64,000 nt of DNA from Humulus lupulus (Eukaryota > Streptophyta > Magnoliopsida > Rosales > Cannabaceae): NCBI RefSeq assembly GCF_963169125.1, contig NC_084794.1:118396358-118460357 (forward strand). Reading direction: 5' to 3'. A program made the position numbers and the translations under genes. The notes below the pieces were generated by a model. The model did no database searches. It saw nothing but the letters and a program-made list of their open reading frames with translations, and was not told the origin of the DNA. Positions 26,106 to 39,285 of this stretch are shown here, in pieces (the first letter of the stretch is position 1; every line of letters starts with the position of its first letter).

Positions 26106-26552
26106 TTACAACTCCCTCATTTTGTAATCACTTTTCTCCATAGTGAAAACTGTGGATATAGGCTCGAGATTATAGTTGAACCACTATAAATTTTTTGTGT
26201 TCTTCATTTGTTTTTTACCAATTATTATTTTGATCTTATTTTATGGCATTTAACTTCTCTTAGAGATTTGTGTACTTATGATTGACCATTTCATCTGCCA
26301 ACTTTAAATAGTTTACTAAATAAAGTACTAAAACATACCTAAATTCAAACAATTCAAGCGGCTTTTAAAAAAAAATTACTATGATTCATTAAAAAAAATA
26401 CTAAAAATTTATTGCAAAACATTGATAATAAAAGAAAAATATTTATTTACTTTTTTAAAAAAAAAAAAAGTGATTCATCGTAAACAAATATTTTACACCC
26501 TAAATTAATATGAAACACTTTTTTTCAAATTGTATATCATGGAAGCTTGTAT
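26106..26552 (+). other. Host flank between G2 and the CACTA element
   Basis: AT-rich and non-coding. The sequence TGTGGATATAGG...TTGAACCACTATAAA (about 26148-26195) resembles the U5 end of an LTR, so it is probably an old LTR remnant. TAT at 26550-26552 is the CACTA target duplication. Confidence 0.45.
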
Positions 26553-26582
26553 CACTACAAGAAAAAAATGCTTTTAATAACA
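26553..26582 (+). repeat. Left terminal inverted repeat of the CACTA element
   Basis: CACTACAAGAAAAA is the canonical end of many plant CACTA elements. It matches the right end at 23 of 30 positions and is preceded by TAT. Confidence 0.8.
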
Positions 26583-26990
26583 TCAAAAATGTGTTATCAA
26601 AACATACCATAATACTTTTTGATGTGTTAAGACCGACTATGTTATTGTAGGTCAGGGTATTTTACATAACACTTTATCATTGTTATACAGATGTGTTATT
26701 ATACTGTCAACGATAACACACTTTCTGTATTATTTTAATAAATAGATAAGTGTTTAATTATATTATTTATAGTCGATTATATAACACATTTCAATACTTA
26801 TAAATTTGTGTAATATAATGAAGTTTGCATAACAAAATTCTTTACTTATAAAAAGTGTTATTGTAATAGATATTATAACACATTTTTCGTATTATTTTAA
26901 TATATAAGCTTTGTATATTATTATATATAATAGATGATATAACACATCTTCATGCTTATACAAAAGTATTATAATATATTATACTTTATT
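26583..26990. repeat. Subterminal repeats of the CACTA element
   Basis: About ten copies of ATAACACA or its complement TGTGTTAT (with variants such as CATAACAC and AGTGTTAT) are scattered in both orientations. Such arrays are the TnpA-binding regions of CACTA elements. Confidence 0.65.
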
Positions 26991-28929
26991 ACTTTTCTAA
27001 CATTATTAATATTTAGATAACTTTAGTTCTTTTTGTATATATTGGCTTAGAGAAACATAATCTTTTTTTTACTTACACAAAACTAGGAAAACAAATATGA
27101 AAGTTGAAGCCAAATAAGGTAATATAAATAGATTTTTATTAATTACTCAAATGTAATTACAATATTTAGTCTACTAGTCTAGGCTTAAGAAATCATATTA
27201 CAACATAATTTATGCCCAATTCAAATTCCATTATCACTAAATACAAAACAAGAAATGTATACAAAAATTAGTGAAATACATTCTTCCATTCTAAAGGCCT
27301 TAACTACAAATGTTGTCAAGAATTTCTCCAAAGAAATCATCTCAATATACCTGCACATTGTAAAAAAAATTCCTTTTATTATTAAGAACATAAGACTTAA
27401 GCTAGTTTCCACCTGTAAGCATATAAAGTTTAAATTTAATTTGTAATAACTCCAAAACTTGAGGAAACAACAGGGTATAGCAAGATGTACTACCATGCAA
27501 AACAACGACTAAAGCACAAAAACATGCAACTTAAAACAAGGCTTGTGAAATGCATCAAGATAAAAAATATATCATGCTCAATGATCAAAAAGTATGTGAG
27601 GAAGAATTGATTCCAAAACTCTAAATTCTATCAATATATCCCCAAAAAAATTAAAGAATAAAAACAGAATCACACTTTGACTTCTTATACAACAAAATCA
27701 TAAAGAAAAATAATAAAATAAAAATGCACTTGGAAACTTCTTTAGCATCTTTAATATAAGGTTTAGCCCAATTTCTACAATAAAACTAAAAATAAAGTTA
27801 GAAAAAAGAACTCTTTCTAATAAAAAGAAAGAAGAATGTCACTTGTGCAACTAAGAAGATCCCAGAACTAAAGTCAAAGATATCAAAAAGCAGAGTTAAA
27901 AGTTCACTTTGCTACACAATATTCATATATGAATGGTTAAGAAACATATGTGTTTGAAGGCTTAAAGAATTAAACTCATGGTGTGACATATGTACCTCAA
28001 TGAGATTTTGATCAACAGCGAGGGAGTTCAGGGTAAGAGTTCAAGTTTCTCGCTGTAGAGAACATCCATTCCTACAATTTATCAATATGGAAAATTGGTG
28101 CTTTATGTTGATTTAGTTTCATTAGTGAAATAGAATATACATCTTCAATTTCTCTTTGCTTGCATGTTGAACCAGAAACACCTCAGGACTTGCTCTCTTG
28201 GTGACTCGTAGGGACTCTTTGTAAGAGCTAACTGTACATAACAATATTGGACATGCTTACATATTGACACCAATCATCTTTACTCATCTAAAGCATCTAC
28301 AAACAAGTCCAATAATAAAAAGAATATGCATCTATCTAGTTTATTATTTGCTAGCCCATAAAAAGATTACTAAAACAAAACAATAAAATATCACTATATC
28401 TAATTTGGACCTTGCCCTTGAAATGTGAAATAAATGTCAAGACTAGGTGAAAATAATTGAGGAATGAACAGAAAATAAATTTAAGGAGTAATCTACTCAA
28501 TTCACCATTAGCAAGGGCAATTGCCATCACACCTGCATCTTCCACTCCATGACAATTGCATATATATCCTTGTTAAATTTCACTTAATATTATGTAACTT
28601 ATATGAAACCACCTAGGAAGCTTTGTACGATTTCAAGAGAAAGTATAATTAAAAAAAGGATGCTTTTTAATTTTGACAAATATGAAAAACAAACACTAGA
28701 ACACAATCCTATTTTATGATAGCCATCCAATGATCAAAAGTATTTATATTTTGCTCAGTGCTCTACCCACCCAATATTTTTACATGGAAGTGGTTCATTA
28801 TAAAGAGATCTTTCTGTTTCGAATGATAATTCTTTGCAAAATGTCATTCCAAACAAGATGTCGAGCATTTTCGACGCCTGTGTTTCAAAAGGTTTTTTGT
28901 ACGATAAAAAAATGGTCAATCACTTGAAA
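26991..28929. other. CACTA interior, left part, no recognised gene
   Basis: AT-rich sequence with three short minus-strand pieces that look exon-like. A piece near 28555-28495 reads HGVEDAGVMAIALANGELS. A piece near 28255-28150 is flanked by TGTACAG. A piece near 28065-27992 lies between TTGTAG and GTACAT. None could be assigned; they may be further captured exons. The remaining ORFs are AT-driven. Confidence 0.4.
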
Positions 28930-29328
28930 ACATGCCTGCATAAAGATCCAGGGAGGGTTCCTTCACACGAATATCTGTGATAACAAAAGTAAAAAGAAAT
29001 GTTTGTGTTAATAAGAATCTCAGATTTTGCAACTCTTATCAAACTTTTAGAACCTTGTCTCACCTCATCTAATAAGCAGAGAGTATGTAGACTAAGATTC
29101 TGGTTGCTTTGAATTTTCTCATAGAAGTTGTCTGGTCTCCAGGTTTCAGTAAAGAATGGTATTGACACTGTCTCTCCATAACGATAGAGCTGCAACCCAC
29201 AAATTCCAATGGCATTCATCACCGAAGCATTGTGTATTACTTTGACAACAATACCCAATTTCTTTGCCCGAACAACAAGATCAGTGTGAGTTGTTGCTCT
29301 GAGTAGGAAATCCATATGTAAACATGAG

Positions 29329-29333
29329 GAAGA
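29329..29333. repeat. Target-site duplication of the solo LTR in DPH5
   Basis: GAAGA on the left matches GAAGA at 31247-31251. Confidence 0.88.
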
Positions 29334-29768
29334 TGTAGAGTCCAAGAACTTTACTTAGCTAGTTAGATAGTAGTATTATAGTAATTATAGTATTATCTTT
29401 ATAACTGTGGATTTATGGTTCAGACCGGGATTTATTTGGACACTCATAGTAGTACTTGTAGATTTTCTAAGTTTAACCTATAGTTTAAGAATATTGATGT
29501 TAACCTAAGGTTTGATTAATATGACTGATGTTGAGGATAATATTTATTATACTATAAGGTTTAGATAAGACCCAATAGGATTTTAAGCACATGTTATGTA
29601 TGGGTGATTAATGATTAAGTATTTTGAGGATTAAATTTATTAAAGGTAAAGTTTGAATACCCTAAGGTCAGTCAGCAGCTTTGAAAACGTTTAAGGGCTT
29701 AGTCAAGGCTGTTTACTCAATTCAAATTAAGCTAAAAATGTGTAATTTCGTGTTTAAATAATCAGCGT

Positions 29769-29901
29769 ATGCCGATATATCGCAGCTATAGGGGGCGATA
29801 TATCGCAGCACGTAGATACGGAAAACACAAAACGATGCACGTTTGCCTCGGGCATAATGGTCCAGGCGATATATCGCCTATAGGGGGCGATATATCGCCT
29901 A
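29769..29901. repeat. Palindrome block with CGATATATCG cores
   Basis: There are four copies of the perfect palindrome CGATATATCG, two of them as GGCGATATATCGCC, in pairs spaced by TATAGGG. The block starts about 310 bp upstream of the TATA box (30082). Confidence 0.85.
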
Positions 29902-30079
29902 TTTCAGCATATTTTGAATGTTTTCAAAATCGTTTCCCATTCAAACCCTTCAACCTCTTGATAAGTCTAGCACCTTTTTGAACGAGTCTTCAGCCTCTGC
30001 TGAACGATAATTCAAATTATTTTCACCTAAAAAGCCATTATTTTTATTCAAGCTAAATTAAGATCCTTTCATTCCTAAA

Positions 30080-30093
30080 CTCTATAAATAGGA
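30080..30093 (+). promoter_or_regulatory. TATA box of the solo LTR
   Basis: CTCTATAAATAGGA is conserved in the related 3' LTR at about 55063-55076. It marks the U3/R boundary region and the plus orientation. Confidence 0.7.
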
Positions 30094-30636
30094 CCTAGTA
30101 CCCAGCCATTATTCTTCTTTTACTCTAAGTTCAGAGGCTGCAAGTTGCTAGGTGAGTGTGAGAGTGTAAACACTTGGGTTGGGAATCATAAGCTTGATCA
30201 TCATAAGCTTATCAAACACTTGGGAAGTAAGGTTTTATAGTATTTCGGTTCGAGGTTTAGATTGGTAGTACAAGTCTTCAAGGTATTTCCACACCTTATT
30301 CATTGGTATTATTTTATTTTAAGTTCTCATAGTCTTCTACTCAGCCTTCTAACCTTAATCTTTATTTTGGTTAGGAAATCTAAGAACTTGCACATAAGTT
30401 TTTGGTAAGTATTTTCTCAATGGTTTAGTCCTTCCATTCCTTTCATTTCTCTTCTTCACTATACTCACTCTTTTTCAAATGGTTCTTAGGAGTGTTCCAA
30501 AGTCCCAACTCTGTCCTCATATCCCGGTATTTTGGTAAGGAAAATAGGATAGAATTTATATGTTATATGCTTGTTATATGTTATCTTGTGTTTTTATGTT
30601 ATGAAATATGTTATGTTATGGTATGTATGTTTGTAG

Positions 30637-30762
30637 GCTTGGGCATATGACCCATATGACTAACAAGCCCCAAATAGATTATGGGCATATGACCTGCTTA
30701 GCTAGTAGGACCCCACTAATCTAATGGGCATATGACTTGTTTAGTCTATGGGACCCCAAGTA
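30637..30762 (+). repeat. Minisatellite in the R/U5 part of the solo LTR
   Basis: Three units of about 50 bp are built on GGGCATATGAC...TAGTAGGACCCC. The related LTR at 54771-56209 has a different minisatellite at the same relative place. Confidence 0.6.
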
Positions 30763-32007
30763 ATAATGGCCATTATAGTATGTGTATGATATAAGTGTTA
30801 TTTTATGTTTTTATGTTTCTTATGAAATTTATGTATATGAACTATGTGTTAGATTTTCCTTGCTGGGCATTAGGCTCATTCCTTTTTGTTTATATGTGCA
30901 GGAAAATAGTCTTAGTGGCGGGAAAGGTTCTTGGAAGCTTGGAGAATGTGTATTGAGGCGGAATGGATTCAAGAGACGAGTGTTACGATTCGAGGATGTA
31001 GTTTGGTTTTTACATGTATTTTTCCGCACTTGTTATGTAATCCCTTTTTATTTTAAATTATGTTTTGTTTTGTTTTTAAAACAATGGGATCCCATATCCT
31101 AACCTAAATTTTATGTAAGTTTAACTCTTATCTTTTTACAAGTTTCTTAATAAAGTTGTGGTATTTTCACTTGTAAGTTTTATTAAGGATTAGTATGTAT
31201 AGTTTTCGTTAATGGTCCAAAAGTCTAGAGTAGTTGGGTCATTACAGAAGAATAGAGGGAAATTTAAGTAAATTGAACAAAGAATCGCATGTATATAAAT
31301 GTCATATTTGGAAAGTAAGATTGAATAAAGATTAGAGAAAATTTTGAATCTGAAAACCTAATTAATCCAACTACAATAGGATAATTTAATCTCATTGAGA
31401 AACTTGAGAAAAAAAATTATAACTTTGTCTCAAATTAGTTTTTATCCAATCCAAAACTACTTGCCAAACATGACCAAAATGAATAAAAATGAACAGTTAC
31501 AATCTAAGGACTTTCAAAGGTCCTTGTGCAGCTAAATAAGAATATTTATGATCACAATTATCTTCTTCTACATATCCATGGAATTTGAGATGGCCCAAAT
31601 CAGCCATGCATATATACATACATGTAAAATACATCTAATGAGGAAAAAAGATATAATTTCTAATATAAACAAGAAAAAAAATCACAAAGAAAAGAAAATC
31701 AGAAAATTGAACGAACATACCCAAAAGGGTCGCCAACTACAAGGAAAGCCACATCAGAAACACGAGCAGCTGAGAGTATTTCATTGGCTTTTTCCTCAAC
31801 CATTTCTCTATCGGCAAGAATCACTGGCCTTCCATAAAGTTTTTCCTGACCAATGAAAAAAGAAATTAATCAATAAAGTTGTTAGCTTTGGAAATTGGTG
31901 CAAAAGAAAGTAACCAAATTGAAGAGAAAGAGAAAGAAGTGTACCAGGGTAGAAAGGCCATCTGAAGAGATACCGAAAGAGAGAAGAGAAGTATAAGCTT
32001 CGATGTA

Positions 32008-33503
32008 GTTTGTATTCGTTGTTGGACTATATACAAAGTCATTAAAAAGCTATGAATATTTTATATACAACACGTATGTAGTTTGCAGCAATATAATATC
32101 ATTGAGTTATAATAAACAAAAAAATTAATACAACTTTGTTGTTTGCTTCTCAACCCTACTGAATTTACACTATGGAAATTAATAAAAAAAAAAGGTCCAA
32201 TCTCCACCACTTTCTGATTTATTTTAACTATCGATTGAATTTAAATGACCATAAAAAATAGAGTAACAGAAGAGAACAAAAGAGAGAAGAAACAAATTTG
32301 TTAATTTCAGTAATGGGGTTGAAGCTATATAACTCTTTATGGCTGTTATGGTGCCCACAGAGGCAAATATTGAAGAAAAAGCAATTAGTTTTTCAAGAAA
32401 ACTTTAATATTATTATGGTTGTGGCCCTTTGGAGTGGCAGATCAGTGGCCTTAAGTTCAGCATTTTTTCTTTCAAACATATCCTTGCTGCTCCCCACTCT
32501 AACTCACTCTTTCCTATTTATTTTATTCAAGATAATTCAAAATCGAATCAAAATCATAAAAGAGCTAGAATCAGAATTCAAAAGAGCAAAGGTAGAAAAA
32601 CTAATCCAAGAACTTAACCATCTTGAAGTTCAGATTACAAAAACACTAGACATACAAGTGAGCACTTTAAATCACCAATCCTATTTGCTTATAATGTCTA
32701 TATAGCTAGTACTTTTGGTCTAATTTTCTTTTCTTCGTCTTCTTTTTATTTTTATGTACAGTCAAAACAAATAAGGGAACTTGATCTTGCTAATATACAT
32801 CTACAACTTGAGGACACATAACCATATTCAATTATACTGCTTTAGAGGTGAGAGAAGTTGAATTAAAAAGTCTACAAGAAGTCCTAGATAGGCTTTGCTT
32901 TGGAAATAAATAATATGAGATAGGAGCTACGAAGTGGGGCTTGTTAAATAGAGTAAAAACTCACATTTCAATTATAGCAAAGTGTAATGAGATATGGAAG
33001 ACTGAGTAAAGAGCATCAAAATTCTACTCTGCTAATACCATTAAAACCAAACACATAAAACACTGTCTCTAAGAGAAACACATAAAACACTGTCTCTAAG
33101 AATCATTATTAATTATTCATTTATTTTTTATTTCTGATTAAAAAAAATACAAAACATAGGGAATTTATAGATAATTATTAATATATATATGATGCATTTT
33201 CTAAGAATATAGTCACTGGTCTGGTCTTATAGCAATGATATATAAAGTAATCTATGGTCAAAATTTAATGAACAAGTTAAATCTAATTATTATTTTGCTG
33301 ATAAATTGAACCAGTGACTAATACATTTTAAAGAAGTACACATATATACTAAAATGATATAGTCCCATCATTTTTATGACTTTGCAGTCAAAAATAAGAA
33401 GTTGAATTCAACTGGGGGGTCAGAAACTCTGAACTTGGTAGATTAACTAGAGACCAAAATAAAACAAAACTCATCAACTATTATATTATTAACCAGCTAT
33501 AAT
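32008..33503. other. CACTA interior between DPH5 and helicase fragments
   Basis: No gene is recognised. A plus-strand stretch near 32560-32890 encodes charged segments such as FKRAKVEKLIQELNHLEVQI and VREVELKSLQEVLDRLCFG, which look coiled-coil-like and may be another captured fragment. Adjacent ORFs break repeatedly. A direct repeat of AGAGAAACACATAAAACACTG lies around 33045-33100. Confidence 0.35.
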
Positions 33504-33660
33504 AATATGAGTTTGAACGATTCAAGGACTCCCCTGTTTGGTCCATATTCATTTATCAATATTTCATGTGGAAAAGAAGAAATAGATGGTGTTCAATATG
33601 GCTGGAAAAACATGGTTGAGGTGGCTTTAGTGATGAGAATTGTTCAGAATCTGTACAAAG
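33504..33660 (+). pseudogene. Captured exon of a SEN1-like superfamily 1 helicase
   Basis: Plus-strand coding with FGPYSFINISCGKEE and WKNMVEVALVMRIVQNLYK, resembling the C-terminal RecA-like part of plant SEN1/tRNA-splicing-endonuclease-effector-like helicases. It ends at a splice donor (AAAG|GTATCT). This is the only recognised captured fragment on the plus strand. Upstream and downstream exons are missing. The family call comes from motif memory, not a search. Confidence 0.65.
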
Positions 33661-34649
33661 GTATCTCACTGCATGCATCACTCTATTATACTTGGATTTT
33701 CTACATGCATAGCAATCTTTCATTCATGAATACATGCATGATGGATGGTTCTTATTTTCTATACAAGCTTTAAATAATGTATGACATATATATTGATATG
33801 TATATTCAACATGACAGTGCTTCTACGCAAGAGATAAACTAGTCATAAGTGTACTTACTTCTCATGGAATATGAGAATTTTTTACAAGACTTCCATGATC
33901 CAAGATTCGTGGAAATTGAACCTACAAAAACCAAACACATCAAAGTTAAGTCAAGAGATAAAATAAACCTAATATCCCAAAACTCGAAGGTAATGTGAAA
34001 TAATAGATAAAAGTGGAAGAGCCAAAACAACAAACATTATGAAGACAAAATATATACACAAATCTTAGATTTACAGTTTTTTTATATTTGAAATAGAGGG
34101 GGATCCATAACAAGAGCAAATAATACATCTAAGTACAATATTTGTGAATGTAATGAACTAGCATGAGCTTTTTTTTGTACCTTCAATACAGGACCAGAGT
34201 AAGAGAACAGTATAACCAGCCTAAAAAAATTCAAAGCTCCACAAATATACAATATATAAAGTCACTTTAAATAAATTCCATAATCTTTAATATTGTCTTA
34301 GTTTAGACAAAGTTCAAGCAAGTTTATTTATTCTCCAGAGCCACAAACAGAGAAAAACTAGGTGTTTTATATAGGAGCATTAATTAAAAGATCCAATCCT
34401 AGGAAGATCAGAGCCACAAACAGAGAAAAACTTAGAACCTGAATGCATAGGAAGATCATGAAATTTCTAGGAAGTACGAAGCATAAATGTAGAAAGACAG
34501 CTCTAATGTACTGACCTGTTTAGAAAATAAAAGTGTTACTCAATTATCAACACATAAAAAGCATAGAACAGCAAGATTCAATTGCTACTGCAAAAGCAGA
34601 AAACATAGAAACAAATGACCAAAACTCCAGACAAGAGAACTGCATGTAC
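33661..34649. other. CACTA interior between helicase and DEK1 fragments
   Basis: AT-rich, with no recognised gene. A short minus piece (about 33923-33855) reads GSISTNLGSWKSCKKFSYSM between TTTTTGTAG and GTAAG-like ends and might be an exon. A 28-bp direct repeat built on GAGCCACAAACAGAGAAAAAC occurs at about 34338 and 34411. Confidence 0.35.
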
Positions 34650-34831
34650 CATTAAACACCATTCTACATATAAAGAGCATGTTAATTGCTAAGGCAATTG
34701 CTGATACGTCGAAGAAGAAACCAGAAGGTGAATACCGCTGAGATGCCTTTGAACCAGCTGTAACATACACAGCACAAAGTTCGTACACACAAAGAAGAGC
34801 AATAGCTAAAAGTAAAAGAACAGCAACAACT
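34650..34831 (-). pseudogene. DEK1: Captured exon of DEK1 (phytocalpain), transmembrane region
   Basis: On minus it encodes VVAVLLLLAIALLCVYELCA, VYVTAG and SGFFFDVSAIALAINMLFIC, then RMVFNG up to a donor (G|GTACAT). This matches the multi-pass N-terminal membrane domain of plant DEFECTIVE KERNEL 1, a large calpain needed for epidermal cell fate. The preceding acceptor ends ..CTACAAG. Only one exon of a very large gene is present, far from the calpain protease domain. There are no stops in this exon, so capture may be fairly recent. Confidence 0.87.
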
Positions 34832-35047
34832 CTTGTAGAAGTAAAATTCAGTGAAATGTGAGTGAAACTTTTTGAAGTCAGGTAGCCAGACATAAAAATA
34901 ATATAATTCATCAAAAGCTTCATCACAATACCAACAGAGAACATTTTCCCTCATTGATCAGTGATGATAAGTACCAAGGAGGAGCAATAGCAAAGTCGTA
35001 TTTCAAATTAAAAAATAAAATCCAATGAAATTAAAGAATTAACTTAC

Positions 35048-35101
35048 CAGTCTTTGCTTCTCAAGTTGGTAGGTAAGCAGCTCATTGTATTTATTAACAG
35101 T
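35048..35101 (-). pseudogene. Captured short exon, possibly of a BRAP2/BRIZ-type protein
   Basis: 54 nt in phase 0 between TATCTGCAG and GTAAGT encode TVNKYNELLTYQLEKQRL. This resembles the coiled-coil linker of plant BRAP2-like RING proteins, but 18 residues are too few for certainty. Confidence 0.35.
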
Positions 35102-35527
35102 CTGCAGATAAAATTTAGCATTATAGGGGAATGAGCATATTACAAAATAAAATCTTAACAAATGAAGCAAAGTATTTAATAATTAAAAAGAAAAGAAAAC
35201 TACATTACAACTTCAACTTCACTGTTCAAAAGTGCTTCAGTAAATCTAAAATTAACCCGTTCACAGATTTCAGTTCCATCATTAACATCAAGACAATGAG
35301 AATTCCATTCAAATTGAGCAATTGCATACAAACACAAATATAAAAGAAAAAGTCAGAGAGAACAAATACCAACAAAAACAATAAAGGATAAATTATTACC
35401 TTCCACAGCCAAAAAAGCCACAGATAATATGCATAACAACAGACACTCAAAATCTTATTAAAACAATAACATCTCTAAAACAAATGAGTCACCGGCAACA
35501 AAAATCCAAAGTTTAAAGCACAAATAA

Positions 35528-36160
35528 GATGTTGACATCAAGTAACCCGATTTAACATCTCTGAAGTCCTCATCAACTTCTACGCAAGTAAGATGTTTGA
35601 AAATATGGGGGAAAAATGACAAGCACAAATATTCTTTAGTGTGTAAGGTCATTTTTTGTATGTAAAAAATAAATAAACAAGAGAAAATGAAACCCCTTGA
35701 AATTCTAGTTTTTTTTTTCTTTCCCCTTCTTAAAATACAATTTCCAAACATAAATGTAAATAAAATTGTTCAGATGTTAGTAAAACCATATCAAATCGAC
35801 TGAACAACGGCAATAATAGATTTGTAAAGTCCACAAGGAAATAAAAGCCCAACCTTTCGATCTTTATCACATAAAAGACCATCAAGAGCAGGGTGATTAA
35901 GAAACTGTACAGAAGAAGAAGAAGAAGAAGAAGAAGAAGAAGAAGAAGAAGAAGAAGAAGAAGAAGAAGAAGAAGAAGAAGAAGAAGGAGAAGAAAAATT
36001 ATTATTTTTAAACAATTCATTAACCAGAAAACAGAAGGCCATAATCTCTTTACAGAAGTTAAAAGGAAAGGAAAACACAAATCACTTACAGCAGTTGACC
36101 AAAAGGAAGGAATAGACTTTGCTATATCATTTCAAGAGATTCATAAAATATGGAAACCAA
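35528..36160 (-). pseudogene. Captured NAP1-related protein (NRP/SET) exons
   Basis: There are three exon pieces in order on minus. 36160-36090 carries NDIAKSIPSFWSTA before a GTAAGT donor. 35904-35854 is FLNHPALDGLLCDKDRK after GTACAG. About 35605-35528 reads FKHLTCVEVDEDFRDVKSGY. Together they follow the SET/NRP histone chaperone core. Nonsense changes precede NDIAK (a TGA where the family has Arg). The first intron carries a long (AAG)n tract. Parts of the gene before and after are missing. Confidence 0.75.
35911..35996. repeat. (AAG)n microsatellite
   Basis: About 28 GAA/AAG units lie in the intron of the captured NRP fragment. They generate spurious poly-Arg, poly-Ser and poly-Leu ORFs. 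Confidence 0.95.
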
Positions 36161-37030
36161 CCTCAAGGAACAGTGCACCTAATTGGTAACGTGACACAAA
36201 TTGAAAATGGAAAAATGTGGATAAAAACTTGCCAATTACAGTATATATCATGAAAATTGTACACTTGACCCAGTGGACACCTGACTGAAATAACCAAATT
36301 CAGTAAGCAAATGATAAATCAGCAAATACTTTAGTCCCTCTGATCGATTTGTAACAGGAATAGTCCATGCATTATAGACTAATTGTTCCCTTTTTAAAAG
36401 TTTACCGAATTGGACTAATATGCATTTTTTTGTAATAAAATAGATGGAAAACTAATTGTACAACTTTCAAAATTCTAGTACGTATAAAGCAACTTAAGAT
36501 ACACAAAAATAGAACTTTGGAACATATTATTAATAACTAGATTCTGACATGAGATTAATCATCATAGCAGAAGAGTAAACACGAACTAAGTCTCTATGAT
36601 CAAGAAAGGACTCAAGTAAGAAAAAGCACTATCAATAAGGGCCTACACTTGGCAACACCCTCCCCACAAAATGTTGAAACTTACTTTATAATAAAAAGAG
36701 TAGTAGATCAGTGATGGCTTTCTTTAAAATGTGAGAGCGGAAGTGAATACCCATTCTCCAGTTCTTAATTTCTCAAGAGCTTATAAAACCTCTTCCCCTC
36801 AGAAAAATAAATAATCACAACAACAACAATGCAGCAATGATTTAATTACAGAATTTTGGACTTATAAATCAGAATTAAAAACTTATGATTACCCTATTCT
36901 CCCCACCATGAACAAGCAGATGTCACAATAACAAGAAGCATCTCAGAACTAAAAATAAAATTAAAAACCTGAAGCATTTAAGACACATCTCTTGCAAAGT
37001 ACTGATTTAAAGAAAGGAGAACCAACCAAC
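36161..37030. other. CACTA interior between NRP and ABCC fragments
   Basis: No recognised gene. A minus piece at 36284-36228 after TTATTTCAG reads SGVHWVKCTIFMIYTVIGK without an obvious donor. It may be an unassigned captured exon. Confidence 0.35.
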
Positions 37031-37086
37031 CTGTAGAGTTGATTCAAGATAAGAGGCCCCACAAATTGAGAAAGATCATTGCCAAT
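37031..37086 (-). pseudogene. Captured exon of an ABCC1/2-type (MRP) transporter
   Basis: 56 nt between AACTTGTAG and GTTGGT on minus encode IGNDLSQFVGPLILNQL. This matches the first transmembrane-domain segment of plant vacuolar ABCC transporters (IGND.SQFVGPL.LNQLL). One base is missing near the end relative to the family. The exon is short, but the match is distinctive. Confidence 0.72.
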
Positions 37087-37937
37087 CTACAAGTTAAAAA
37101 GTGAACAAAAAAATAAAATATTAGAAAACATATTTGGTCTGATATAAAATTTACACTTAAAATAACATATTTGGAAAAGCAACGGTCTGATGTTGGTTGG
37201 TGAAAAATTAGAACACTGCTGTACTTTTTCCATATAAATGTGCAAAAAAAAATGCTTTGTGCTATGATGTTCCAAAGCTATAATTAAGAGCGAGAGAGAG
37301 AGAGAGAGAGAGAGAGAGTAGTTGAGTACTAAAACATTATGACTAGGAAACTTTTGGTCATATGAAAAAAAGATTCAGTCTTGGATACTTGCCTAAAATA
37401 TGCCAAAAGTTACCTAACATAGTGACATGGTGTGCTCAAAATATATATTATTATGGCCAATTTACCGTTAAGGAAGTATATCATTTGATAAAACACTAAA
37501 GATTATAATCAAAAACACATAATCCATTTCTTCTGAACACCTTAAGCAAGATTGGCATGTATCAATAAGGCTAAAACTAGTTCGTTTCAAAAGAATGTAA
37601 AAGAAGTTTGTCATAAGAGACACATAAATCAGGTTTATACTTTAATTACTACATCATATAAGGTACCTGGAAACATCAAATGGGATAGCCCACTTCAATA
37701 TTGACCATTCTATATGTCATGAAAGTAAAGTTAATATCTGAGGGATTCGACCACCCGTGAATATGGCAGCCATCATCCATCACAACCATTGCCCATATAC
37801 ACTATGTTCCTCAATTCCATTTTCTTGCTATGTATATATATATTGAGTTTAAAAATGAAAAATAATTAGAGAGATTTGTAAATGTAATTATAATTAATTT
37901 GGCAAAAATGGTAACAGTAAAATTAAATGATACGTAC
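37087..37937. other. CACTA interior, non-coding with (GA)n
   Basis: AT-rich, with no supported coding region. A (GA)n microsatellite occupies 37290-37318. Confidence 0.5.
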
Positions 37938-38426
37938 ATGGAGTAAGAGTTTCCTAGCAGAAAATTGATTGGCCATGACCAGAGAACCTTCACATAAACC
38001 AGGAACAATTTGAAATTGCCTGAATTCACCTCCAAACCTCTAGATATGCTGCCACTTCTGTATGAGACATAAACAAACAATCACATCAGTTTGATCAAAT
38101 AAAAAAGAACAAAGTTGAAAAAAATTTAGCAACAAGCTTGTACACCATAGACCCCCTGCCTCCAAGTGGAATACCTTGAGATGCAGATGGCTTGCAACTT
38201 TCACAATTGAAAGGATCAATTAGAGCTTTCTGCAAAGATATACAATTAAGCAATTAACTTTCAAACTCCTATGCATAAAGATTATTTCATCCAAGTGTTA
38301 ATAGTCACAACACCATACGACAAATCATTACTAAGGTAAAATAAAATAAATGAAAGAATGAAAATTTACCCTTCCATGAGAGGCTTCTTCTCTTACATAT
38401 GACCATAGCCATATACCTAGTCGAAC
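37938..38426 (-). pseudogene. Captured three-exon fragment of an unrecognised gene
   Basis: There are three minus exons, all in phase 0 and open. 38426-38370 is RLGIWLWSYVREEASHGR. 38229-38146 includes DPFNCESCKPSASQGIPLGG. 38039-37938 is FGGEFRQFQIVPGLCEGSLV and following. Acceptors (TTTTTAG, CTTTGCAG, ATATCTAG) and donors (GTAAAT, GTGTAC, GTACGT) are usable. I do not recognise the protein. The preserved phases argue for a real spliced gene piece. Confidence 0.55.
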
Positions 38427-38689
38427 CTAAAAATCAACGTCCATACACAAGTTAGAAGTTAAGCAAGACAAAAATCAACAAGCGAGCAGGAAAACTAAGA
38501 GAAGAAACCCACTCTTATATTTGATTACGCATATTCTTCTCTCCACAGCCCACCCCACACTCTCTGCCCAAAATAATTAAGCTCGTACACAGGTTACCCT
38601 TCTTCTCCACAATACCCAAAACATAACACAGAAAAATACCCAAAATTTTCCCACGACAAAGAGGGTGACACAAAAAGATTGGAGATATT

Positions 38690-39120
38690 TGGGTATCGGG
38701 TTTCACCCCAAACTCATCCTCCATGAGTGAGACAAGAGCCAAAATTTCATCATAAAACTCGAACTGGGCATAGCTCTAGATGAAAATCAAGAACGTACCT
38801 TTATCGACGGGGCAAGCAGAGCGCTTCATATCGAGAAAGAGATTGGTCATGGAGTCAAAAGAGCCAACCTTGGCGAGTTTGCGAAGGATCTCCTGGTAGA
38901 TGGAGGTAGTGGGTGAGAAATTAGGCTGTTTTGAGGCCTAGTCGAAGATGCAAAGCGAGGAGGATTCATCATTCTGGCGACGAAGGGTGTCGAGAAGCTG
39001 CTTGGAGGTGAAGTCGGGAGGGAGGGGTTGATGTTGAGACTGAGAATAAGAGAGTGAATTGGGATTGAAGTTGAAGGAGAGATGGTTGAGAGAGTGAGGA
39101 AGAGACCAAGGACAGCACAT
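38690..39120 (-). pseudogene. Captured N-terminal part of a MEE40-type PPR protein
   Basis: The start ATG (39120-39118) begins MCCPWSLPHSLNHLSF, an organelle-targeting-like, Ser/Pro-rich N-terminus. It continues with LLDTLRRQ, ASKQPNFSP, EILRKLAKVGSFDSM, SYAQFEFYDEILALV and DEFGVKPDT, matching the first part of the Arabidopsis MEE40 (At3g53700) pentatricopeptide-repeat protein. The match stops abruptly after KPDT. Two in-frame TAG codons (about 38940 and 38780) disable it. It is only about 160 bp from the right CACTA end. Confidence 0.85.
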
Positions 39121-39252
39121 GAGAGAGAGAGGCCAAAAAAAAATATAACTTTTACAAGTTATAGGCGGGCTCCCAAAATATATTACCGCCATTTTTTTTT
39201 CCATTTACCACATATACATATCATAATACTTTTTCAGTAGAATTATATTATT

Positions 39253-39282
39253 ATGTTATGAAAACAGGTATTTGGTGTAGTG
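39253..39282 (-). repeat. Right terminal inverted repeat of the CACTA element
   Basis: On minus it reads CACTACACCAAATACCTG and is followed on plus by TAT (39283-39285). The match to the left end is 23/30. Confidence 0.72.
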
Positions 39283-39285
39283 TAT

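Follow-up and report, generated by a model that had tools for sequence, protein, structure and literature searches.

The En/Spm-related elements of the Tpn1 family in Japanese morning glory are, by the title of their description, said to capture host genes. The consulted sections of the soybean report describe Tgm-Express1 as a CACTA transposon of 5.7 kb that holds pieces of five donors and whose exons are spliced into chimeric transcripts (PMC1947982), and in those of a survey covering maize the most distinct loci per element are found in Pack-CACTA (PMC8903248). Here we present an element of this kind from the hop (Humulus lupulus) genome of 2.48 Gb, located within C2:118396358-118460357, a stretch of 64,000 nucleotides referred to below as the window. 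We propose, with a probability of roughly 0.7, that it is a mobile Pack-CACTA which carries fragments of at least six host genes and whose cargo derives from two separately amplified lineages that became joined.

As far as the consulted text of PMC1947982 goes, the hop element resembles Tgm-Express1 in being a CACTA unit whose fragments stem from several unrelated host genes and include introns; unlike it, the hop element measures 10.8 kb, has six to seven supported donors, is known from DNA sequence alone, has numerous relatives that are mosaics too and probably goes back to two lineages. With the Arabidopsis and maize Pack-CACTA, as portrayed in the same sections of PMC8903248, it shares CACTA ends, the lack of a transposase and captured coding DNA from several loci; it differs in that a single element is laid out here with its donors, relatives and block edges, and in that hop relatives hold a complete DPH5 gene. 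A preliminary description of the locus had considered so many donors in one CACTA element uncommon, which needs qualifying: the kind of element is already known, since both Tgm-Express1 and maize Pack-CACTA hold several donors according to those partial sources (PMC1947982, PMC8903248). The hop element adds its set of donors, the DPH5 copies and an origin that probably lies in two lineages; among the best-matching papers listed for hop combined with CACTA or gene capture, none deals with such elements in hop.

Boundaries and past mobility of the element

The element and its boundary features are as follows.

26553-39282, no strand assigned: whole Pack-CACTA element, delimited by its ends, the TAT duplication and a full-length sibling with ATC
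26550-26552, no strand assigned: left copy of the target-site duplication TAT, read from the sequence
39283-39285, no strand assigned: right copy of the target-site duplication TAT, read from the sequence
26553-27948, plus strand: left terminal block common to the wider family, holding the subterminal ATAACACA repeats, from the family search
29332-31246, no strand assigned: solo long terminal repeat (LTR), with a GAAGA duplication at 29327-29331 and 31247-31251, missing from the sibling

The unit comprises ~10.8 kb plus the later solo LTR and has the terminal inverted repeats of the CACTA superfamily (CACTACAAG... on the left, ...GGTGTAGTG on the right), with the left terminus CACTACAAGAAAAAAATGC starting at 26553 and the right terminus GGTATTTGGTGTAGTG closing at 39282. 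Such ends alone are weak evidence: the window has 21 pairs of CACTAC[AT]/[AT]GTAGTG at spacings of 0.5-25 kb, of which one (26553-39282) has matching 3-bp flanks, against a chance expectation that we estimate at ~0.3-0.5. Because CACTA-like ends with a 3-bp match could thus arise by chance, it is the siblings that serve as proof. The one full-length sibling aligned whole, C1:73084093-73094865, is colinear from end to end, has both of the same CACTA ends, is flanked by ATC on each side and lacks the LTR; its identity to the window element is 97.0% over 10,626 aligned columns (95-98% per 500-bp bin). The single CACTA element first proposed from its ends and TAT duplication is thereby confirmed, and the search for further copies with the same ends, suggested at that time, was likewise successful.

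In these searches 40 candidates were scored of 2557, 278, 1075 and 468, respectively (the 2557 being first-look candidates for the query 26553-28553), so that all family counts are lower bounds. The left end CACTACAAGAAAAAA is visible in 12 of 15 fetched sibling regions, which were largely picked by matching CACTACAAGAAAAAA, and was not seen in the fetched stretch of the remaining three. C28:149M (duplication ATT) and C9:197.8M (ACT) have the same two ends around different interiors, and matching 3-bp duplications flank four of the five copies with both ends (TAT, ATC, ATT and ACT; the exception, C3:119M, reads AAA/AAG). As copies carry duplications of their own, the family has moved in the past; the concern that the two termini might belong to different elements is answered by the colinear sibling, flanked by its ATC duplication, and by further elements that share both ends. 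C3:258129502-258178446 and C10:8113703-8137919 are apparently further copies interrupted by insertions, and C9:176.29M and C4:104.60M cover all of 36300-39282. Sister elements with the same ends hold other cargo, namely DUF707 in two (L024:476-9032 and L021:773-9087) and an FHA-domain fragment in the first of these as well, with one strand of each scanned. The window element belongs to a large family of mosaic gene-carrying elements.

Segmental duplication, or decay of a host gene cluster, would account for introns and exons keeping their order within each donor. It is hardly credible here: copies that share the ends but are flanked by differing duplications are spread over many contigs, the full-length sibling refutes it, and the donors map to different contigs.

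Subterminal repeats had been described for the element as a whole; four copies of ATAACACA stand near the left end (26713-26946), but the 600 bp next to the right end contain none. CACTACA and TGTAGTG are both absent from the interior. A six-frame Pfam scan gave no transposase at E values up to 1, which is weak evidence, since the NAP and DPH5 exons described below escaped the same scan. The element is a non-autonomous CACTA, and it holds host gene DNA traceable to parent loci (DEK1 and PPR, with candidates for GH116), as a Pack-CACTA does. The sibling connects 29333 to 31247, with a 5-bp overlap and no LTR, and the insertion of the solo LTR into the DPH5 part postdates the formation of the element. 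A repeated CGATATATCGC motif occurs inside this LTR.

Captured gene fragments

Unrelated host genes, at least six and probably seven of them, contributed pieces to the cargo, and these were captured as genomic DNA with introns included.

28930-28986, minus strand: DPH5 exon 4 (DIRVKEPSL...), from exon reading
29072-29323, minus strand: DPH5 exon 3, PDB 3i4t at 93.9 bits, donor reading AT in place of GT
31711-31848, minus strand: DPH5 exon 2, from a PDB match and exon reading
31945-32008, minus strand: end portion of DPH5 exon 1, start missing, with a ~785-bp gap at 32008 relative to three relatives
33527-33662, plus strand: SEN1-type helicase exon (AAA_12), from Pfam and hop protein LOC133825698
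34567-34930, minus strand: DEK1 genomic segment, one exon (34645-34833) and both flanking introns
35048-35300, minus strand: two exons resembling BRAP2/BRIZ, an unconfirmed resemblance
35530-36131, minus strand: exons of a NAP1-related protein (NRP/SET), from PDB 7c7x and Pfam NAP
37030-37086, minus strand: likely ABCC2-type exon (IGNDLSQFVGPLILNQLYR) of 21 residues, from PDB 9li5
37941-38229, minus strand: two exons of a GH116 glucosylceramidase, from PF12215 below cut-off and donor candidates
38690-39141, minus strand: 5' part of a PPR gene, with two in-frame stops; homology to the parent ends at 38690

With the whole 12.7-kb span as a single query, a six-frame PDB search returned only PPR and DPH5, and short exon queries gave the rest; weak matches to KaiC, Cut8 and plus-strand chains were dismissed as noise. 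All six genes originally recognised find support, five of them being confirmed and the ABCC piece likely. Two exons match diphthine synthase (PDB 3i4t, E 2.5e-26 and 3.8e-5), which confirms DPH5; its exon-3 donor mutation is confined to the window copy among nine readable copies, the other eight having GT, and a tenth copy gave no reading. The SEN1-like helicase exon combines an AAA_12 match short of the Pfam cut-off (E 0.0049) with 91% identity to hop LOC133825698 over 46 residues (E 3e-17). The N-terminus of LOC133825698 (MSLNDSRT) nearly equals the residues ahead of the window's SEN1 exon, and for this reason the start of that gene model may fall in a copy that is truncated or derived from an element.

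For DEK1, the best match among plant DEK1 proteins has E 2.2e-26, and 56 of 61 residues are identical to Cannabis DEK1. Its parent, C8:5537033-5537396, agrees at 346 of 364 bases, ungapped through both introns, and sits upstream of DEK1 calpain exons; DEK1 exons of the hop genome reach up to 98% identity to the Cannabis protein. A 172-residue DEK1 query gave 153 matches genome-wide (150 of 275 candidates scored), and by hand count ~95 of the rows listed fall in the captured exon, many of them stopping close to one common residue. DEK1 copies that are partial but comprise several exons were also seen at C1:121.30M, C28:170.73M, C3:200.61M and C2:217.53M.

The piece likened to NRP/SET is indeed from a NAP1-related protein (PDB 7c7x, E 1.8e-15; Pfam NAP, 7.7e-8); a PF00956 family search of the genome gave five matches, all on C10, among which the parent was not identified. 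A long AGA microsatellite at 35917-35990 is 72 bases longer than in the full-length sibling. The exon attributed to ABCC1/2 is likely, as an ABCC2 type, but its match to PDB 9li5 is weak on its own (E 0.049). Two exons that had been left without assignment (38229-38142 and 38042-37941) match GH116 glucosylceramidase, with PF12215 E values of 4.4e-4 for one exon and 2.6e-4 for two, both under the cut-off. The candidate donors C2:291988849-291989393 (95%) and C3:129004456-129004999 (93%) match 37958-38503, and both run on into GH116 exons that the element does not have. The PPR piece is secure (E 1.8e-11), and its parent, C4:251002070-251002525, is 94% identical to 38690-39141, open at the site of the element's second stop and continuous in PPR sequence beyond the 38690 break. 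The BRAP2/BRIZ label of 35048-35300 is tentative, and a search with one exon gave no match.

With GH116 added, six donors (DPH5, DEK1, NAP1-related, PPR, SEN1 and GH116) are supported even if ABCC2 is set aside, and the expectation of at least six is borne out. The proposed check for parent loci led to separate places, C8 for DEK1, C4 for PPR and C2 or C3 for GH116; the donors are real, unrelated and map to separate contigs.

Five of the six pieces first recognised do lie on one strand, SEN1 alone being on the plus strand, and the proportion becomes seven of eight when the likely ABCC2 and unconfirmed BRAP2 pieces are counted. Fragments in one orientation are a pattern familiar from maize Helitrons, and a Helitron could have collected them, leaving the CACTA ends incidental. 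This is extremely improbable: 3-bp duplications and CACTA ends delimit the unit in relatives, a simple scan for hairpin plus CTRR found no Helitron end inside the element, and in place of the Helitron hallmarks (5' TC, 3' hairpin plus CTRR, no duplication) duplications are present.

Two probable lineages and the proposed seam between them

34401-34943, no strand assigned: junction zone between the left (DPH5 and SEN1) and right (NAP, ABCC, GH116 and PPR) lineages, from block edges

A search with 33400-36300 gave 45 rows from 40 scored candidates, three of which, the window included, span the whole query; ten end at 34401-34405 and six start at 34943. The left block with DPH5 and SEN1 is present in C10:170M, C2:282M and C1:306M, all of which have beyond 34405 a different sequence that is common to the three and that in C10:170M includes a CACTA-like right end, GGTGTAGTG. 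Between the left and right blocks sits the DEK1 segment. Since each half is also met without the other, a single element probably did not collect the whole cargo. We propose instead that it arose from the joining of two older multi-gene Pack-CACTA lineages, of which the left would have contributed the left end, DPH5 and SEN1, and the right the right end, NAP, ABCC, GH116 and PPR; each would have lost its inner end, with the DEK1 segment at the seam, and the joined element would then have transposed, presumably with the transposase supplied in trans by an autonomous CACTA. The formation of hybrids through complementary end losses of neighbouring elements is treated in the consulted part of a review (PMC13317346), and, within the compass of that part, the hop pattern fits it. 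The stepwise growth of a gene-shuffling transposon would thus become readable, from donor loci through two gene-carrying lineages that also occur apart to a joined element moving again, and the joining of neighbouring Pack-CACTA elements testable within one genome.

The alternative of a single ancestral element that collected all donors, with the left and right lineages as its deletion derivatives, is unlikely yet deserves serious weight. Internal deletions are common in the family: the C8:103M relative is without parts of the ABCC, GH116 and PPR segments, and C10:8M and C27:114M are gapped relative to the window element. (The differences in C8:103M were also considered as exon-targeted insertion, which was rejected; what is left there of the ABCC exon and of its intron identifies them as deletions.) Left-lineage rows moreover have several different edges, and DEK1 pieces adjoin both the left and right blocks. 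Against a single ancestor stand the edge common to ten rows at 34401-34405 and the other shared by six at 34943, as well as the different sequence past 34405 in C10:170M, C2:282M and C1:306M, which plain deletion does not give, and, in C10:170M, the CACTA-like right end within it.

It is also important to note which observations weigh against a joining of two lineages. In the same search six rows end at 34164 and five at 34113-34118, and since left-lineage rows lack one common edge, some block edges are later deletions. The right-lineage elements were seen in part, with their own left ends out of view, and two relatives hold 34297-34839 next to part of the left block. In four relatives (C2:66.27M, C8:22.78M, C1:278.41M and C7:212.18M) a DEK1 piece lies 24-30 bp from the right-lineage block (36762-37474 or 36768-37474), so that DEK1 may have entered earlier and not at the seam. 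Stretches of 12 bp and ~160 bp between the blocks have no assignment, the located parents do not include those of NAP, ABCC and SEN1, the absence of a transposase relies on the weak Pfam scan, and a single full-length sibling was aligned whole. We infer the joining, and hold it no more firmly than that, because right-lineage elements were read in part only and DEK1 pieces also adjoin their block.

State of the cargo

Splice sites had been regarded as preserved, which holds for several canonical ones but not for the acceptor of DEK1 or the donor of DPH5 exon 3, both mutated in the window copy. Identity to the sibling is 94-100% across 14 exons and 97.1% in the remainder, and the exons show no higher conservation than the rest of the element. 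We read the captured exons as passengers that are probably decaying neutrally. Chimeric transcripts from the element are possible, and same-strand exons, several with canonical splice sites, together with the chimeric splicing documented for Tgm-Express1 in the consulted text of PMC1947982, could be taken to favour a new functional chimeric gene. Such a gene is nonetheless very unlikely, as exon conservation between siblings does not exceed that of the rest, the PPR piece contains two stops, and the DEK1 and DPH5 splice sites are mutated.

DPH5 copies in the hop genome

A TIGR00522 profile scan of the genome, with all 59 DPH5 candidates scored, places DPH5 exon 3 at 20 loci, and three copies (C1:306.26M, C3:203.29M and C8:205.35M) were read by eye over six exons and their splice sites. 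In C1:306.26M all six exons are open and the splice sites canonical; exon 6 of C3:203.29M is interrupted by a stop, as are exons 5 and 6 of C8:205.35M. The first of these copies (region C1:306258000-306267999) is embedded in an element whose right end has decayed to TGTAGTT and which bears an LTR-like insertion close to its left end; in a nine-copy DPH5 tree, where no fork is supported, this copy has the shortest branch. One member of the element family thus appears to carry a whole, intact-looking DPH5 gene. It is conceivable, if on balance doubtful, that hop's working DPH5 sits in this decayed Pack-CACTA and that the original gene is now a pseudogene; a CACTA element would then have relocated a whole conserved gene.

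C8:205.35M was found to be without element flanks: it matches the elements over ~2.3 kb only, the rest of its fetched 4 kb being unmatched to the three elements compared. A role for it as outgroup parent to the DPH5 copies was considered but was not demonstrable from the nine-row tree. A further DPH5 locus lies at C8:30.42M, and C2:207.33M has no stop in its four matched DPH5 exons.

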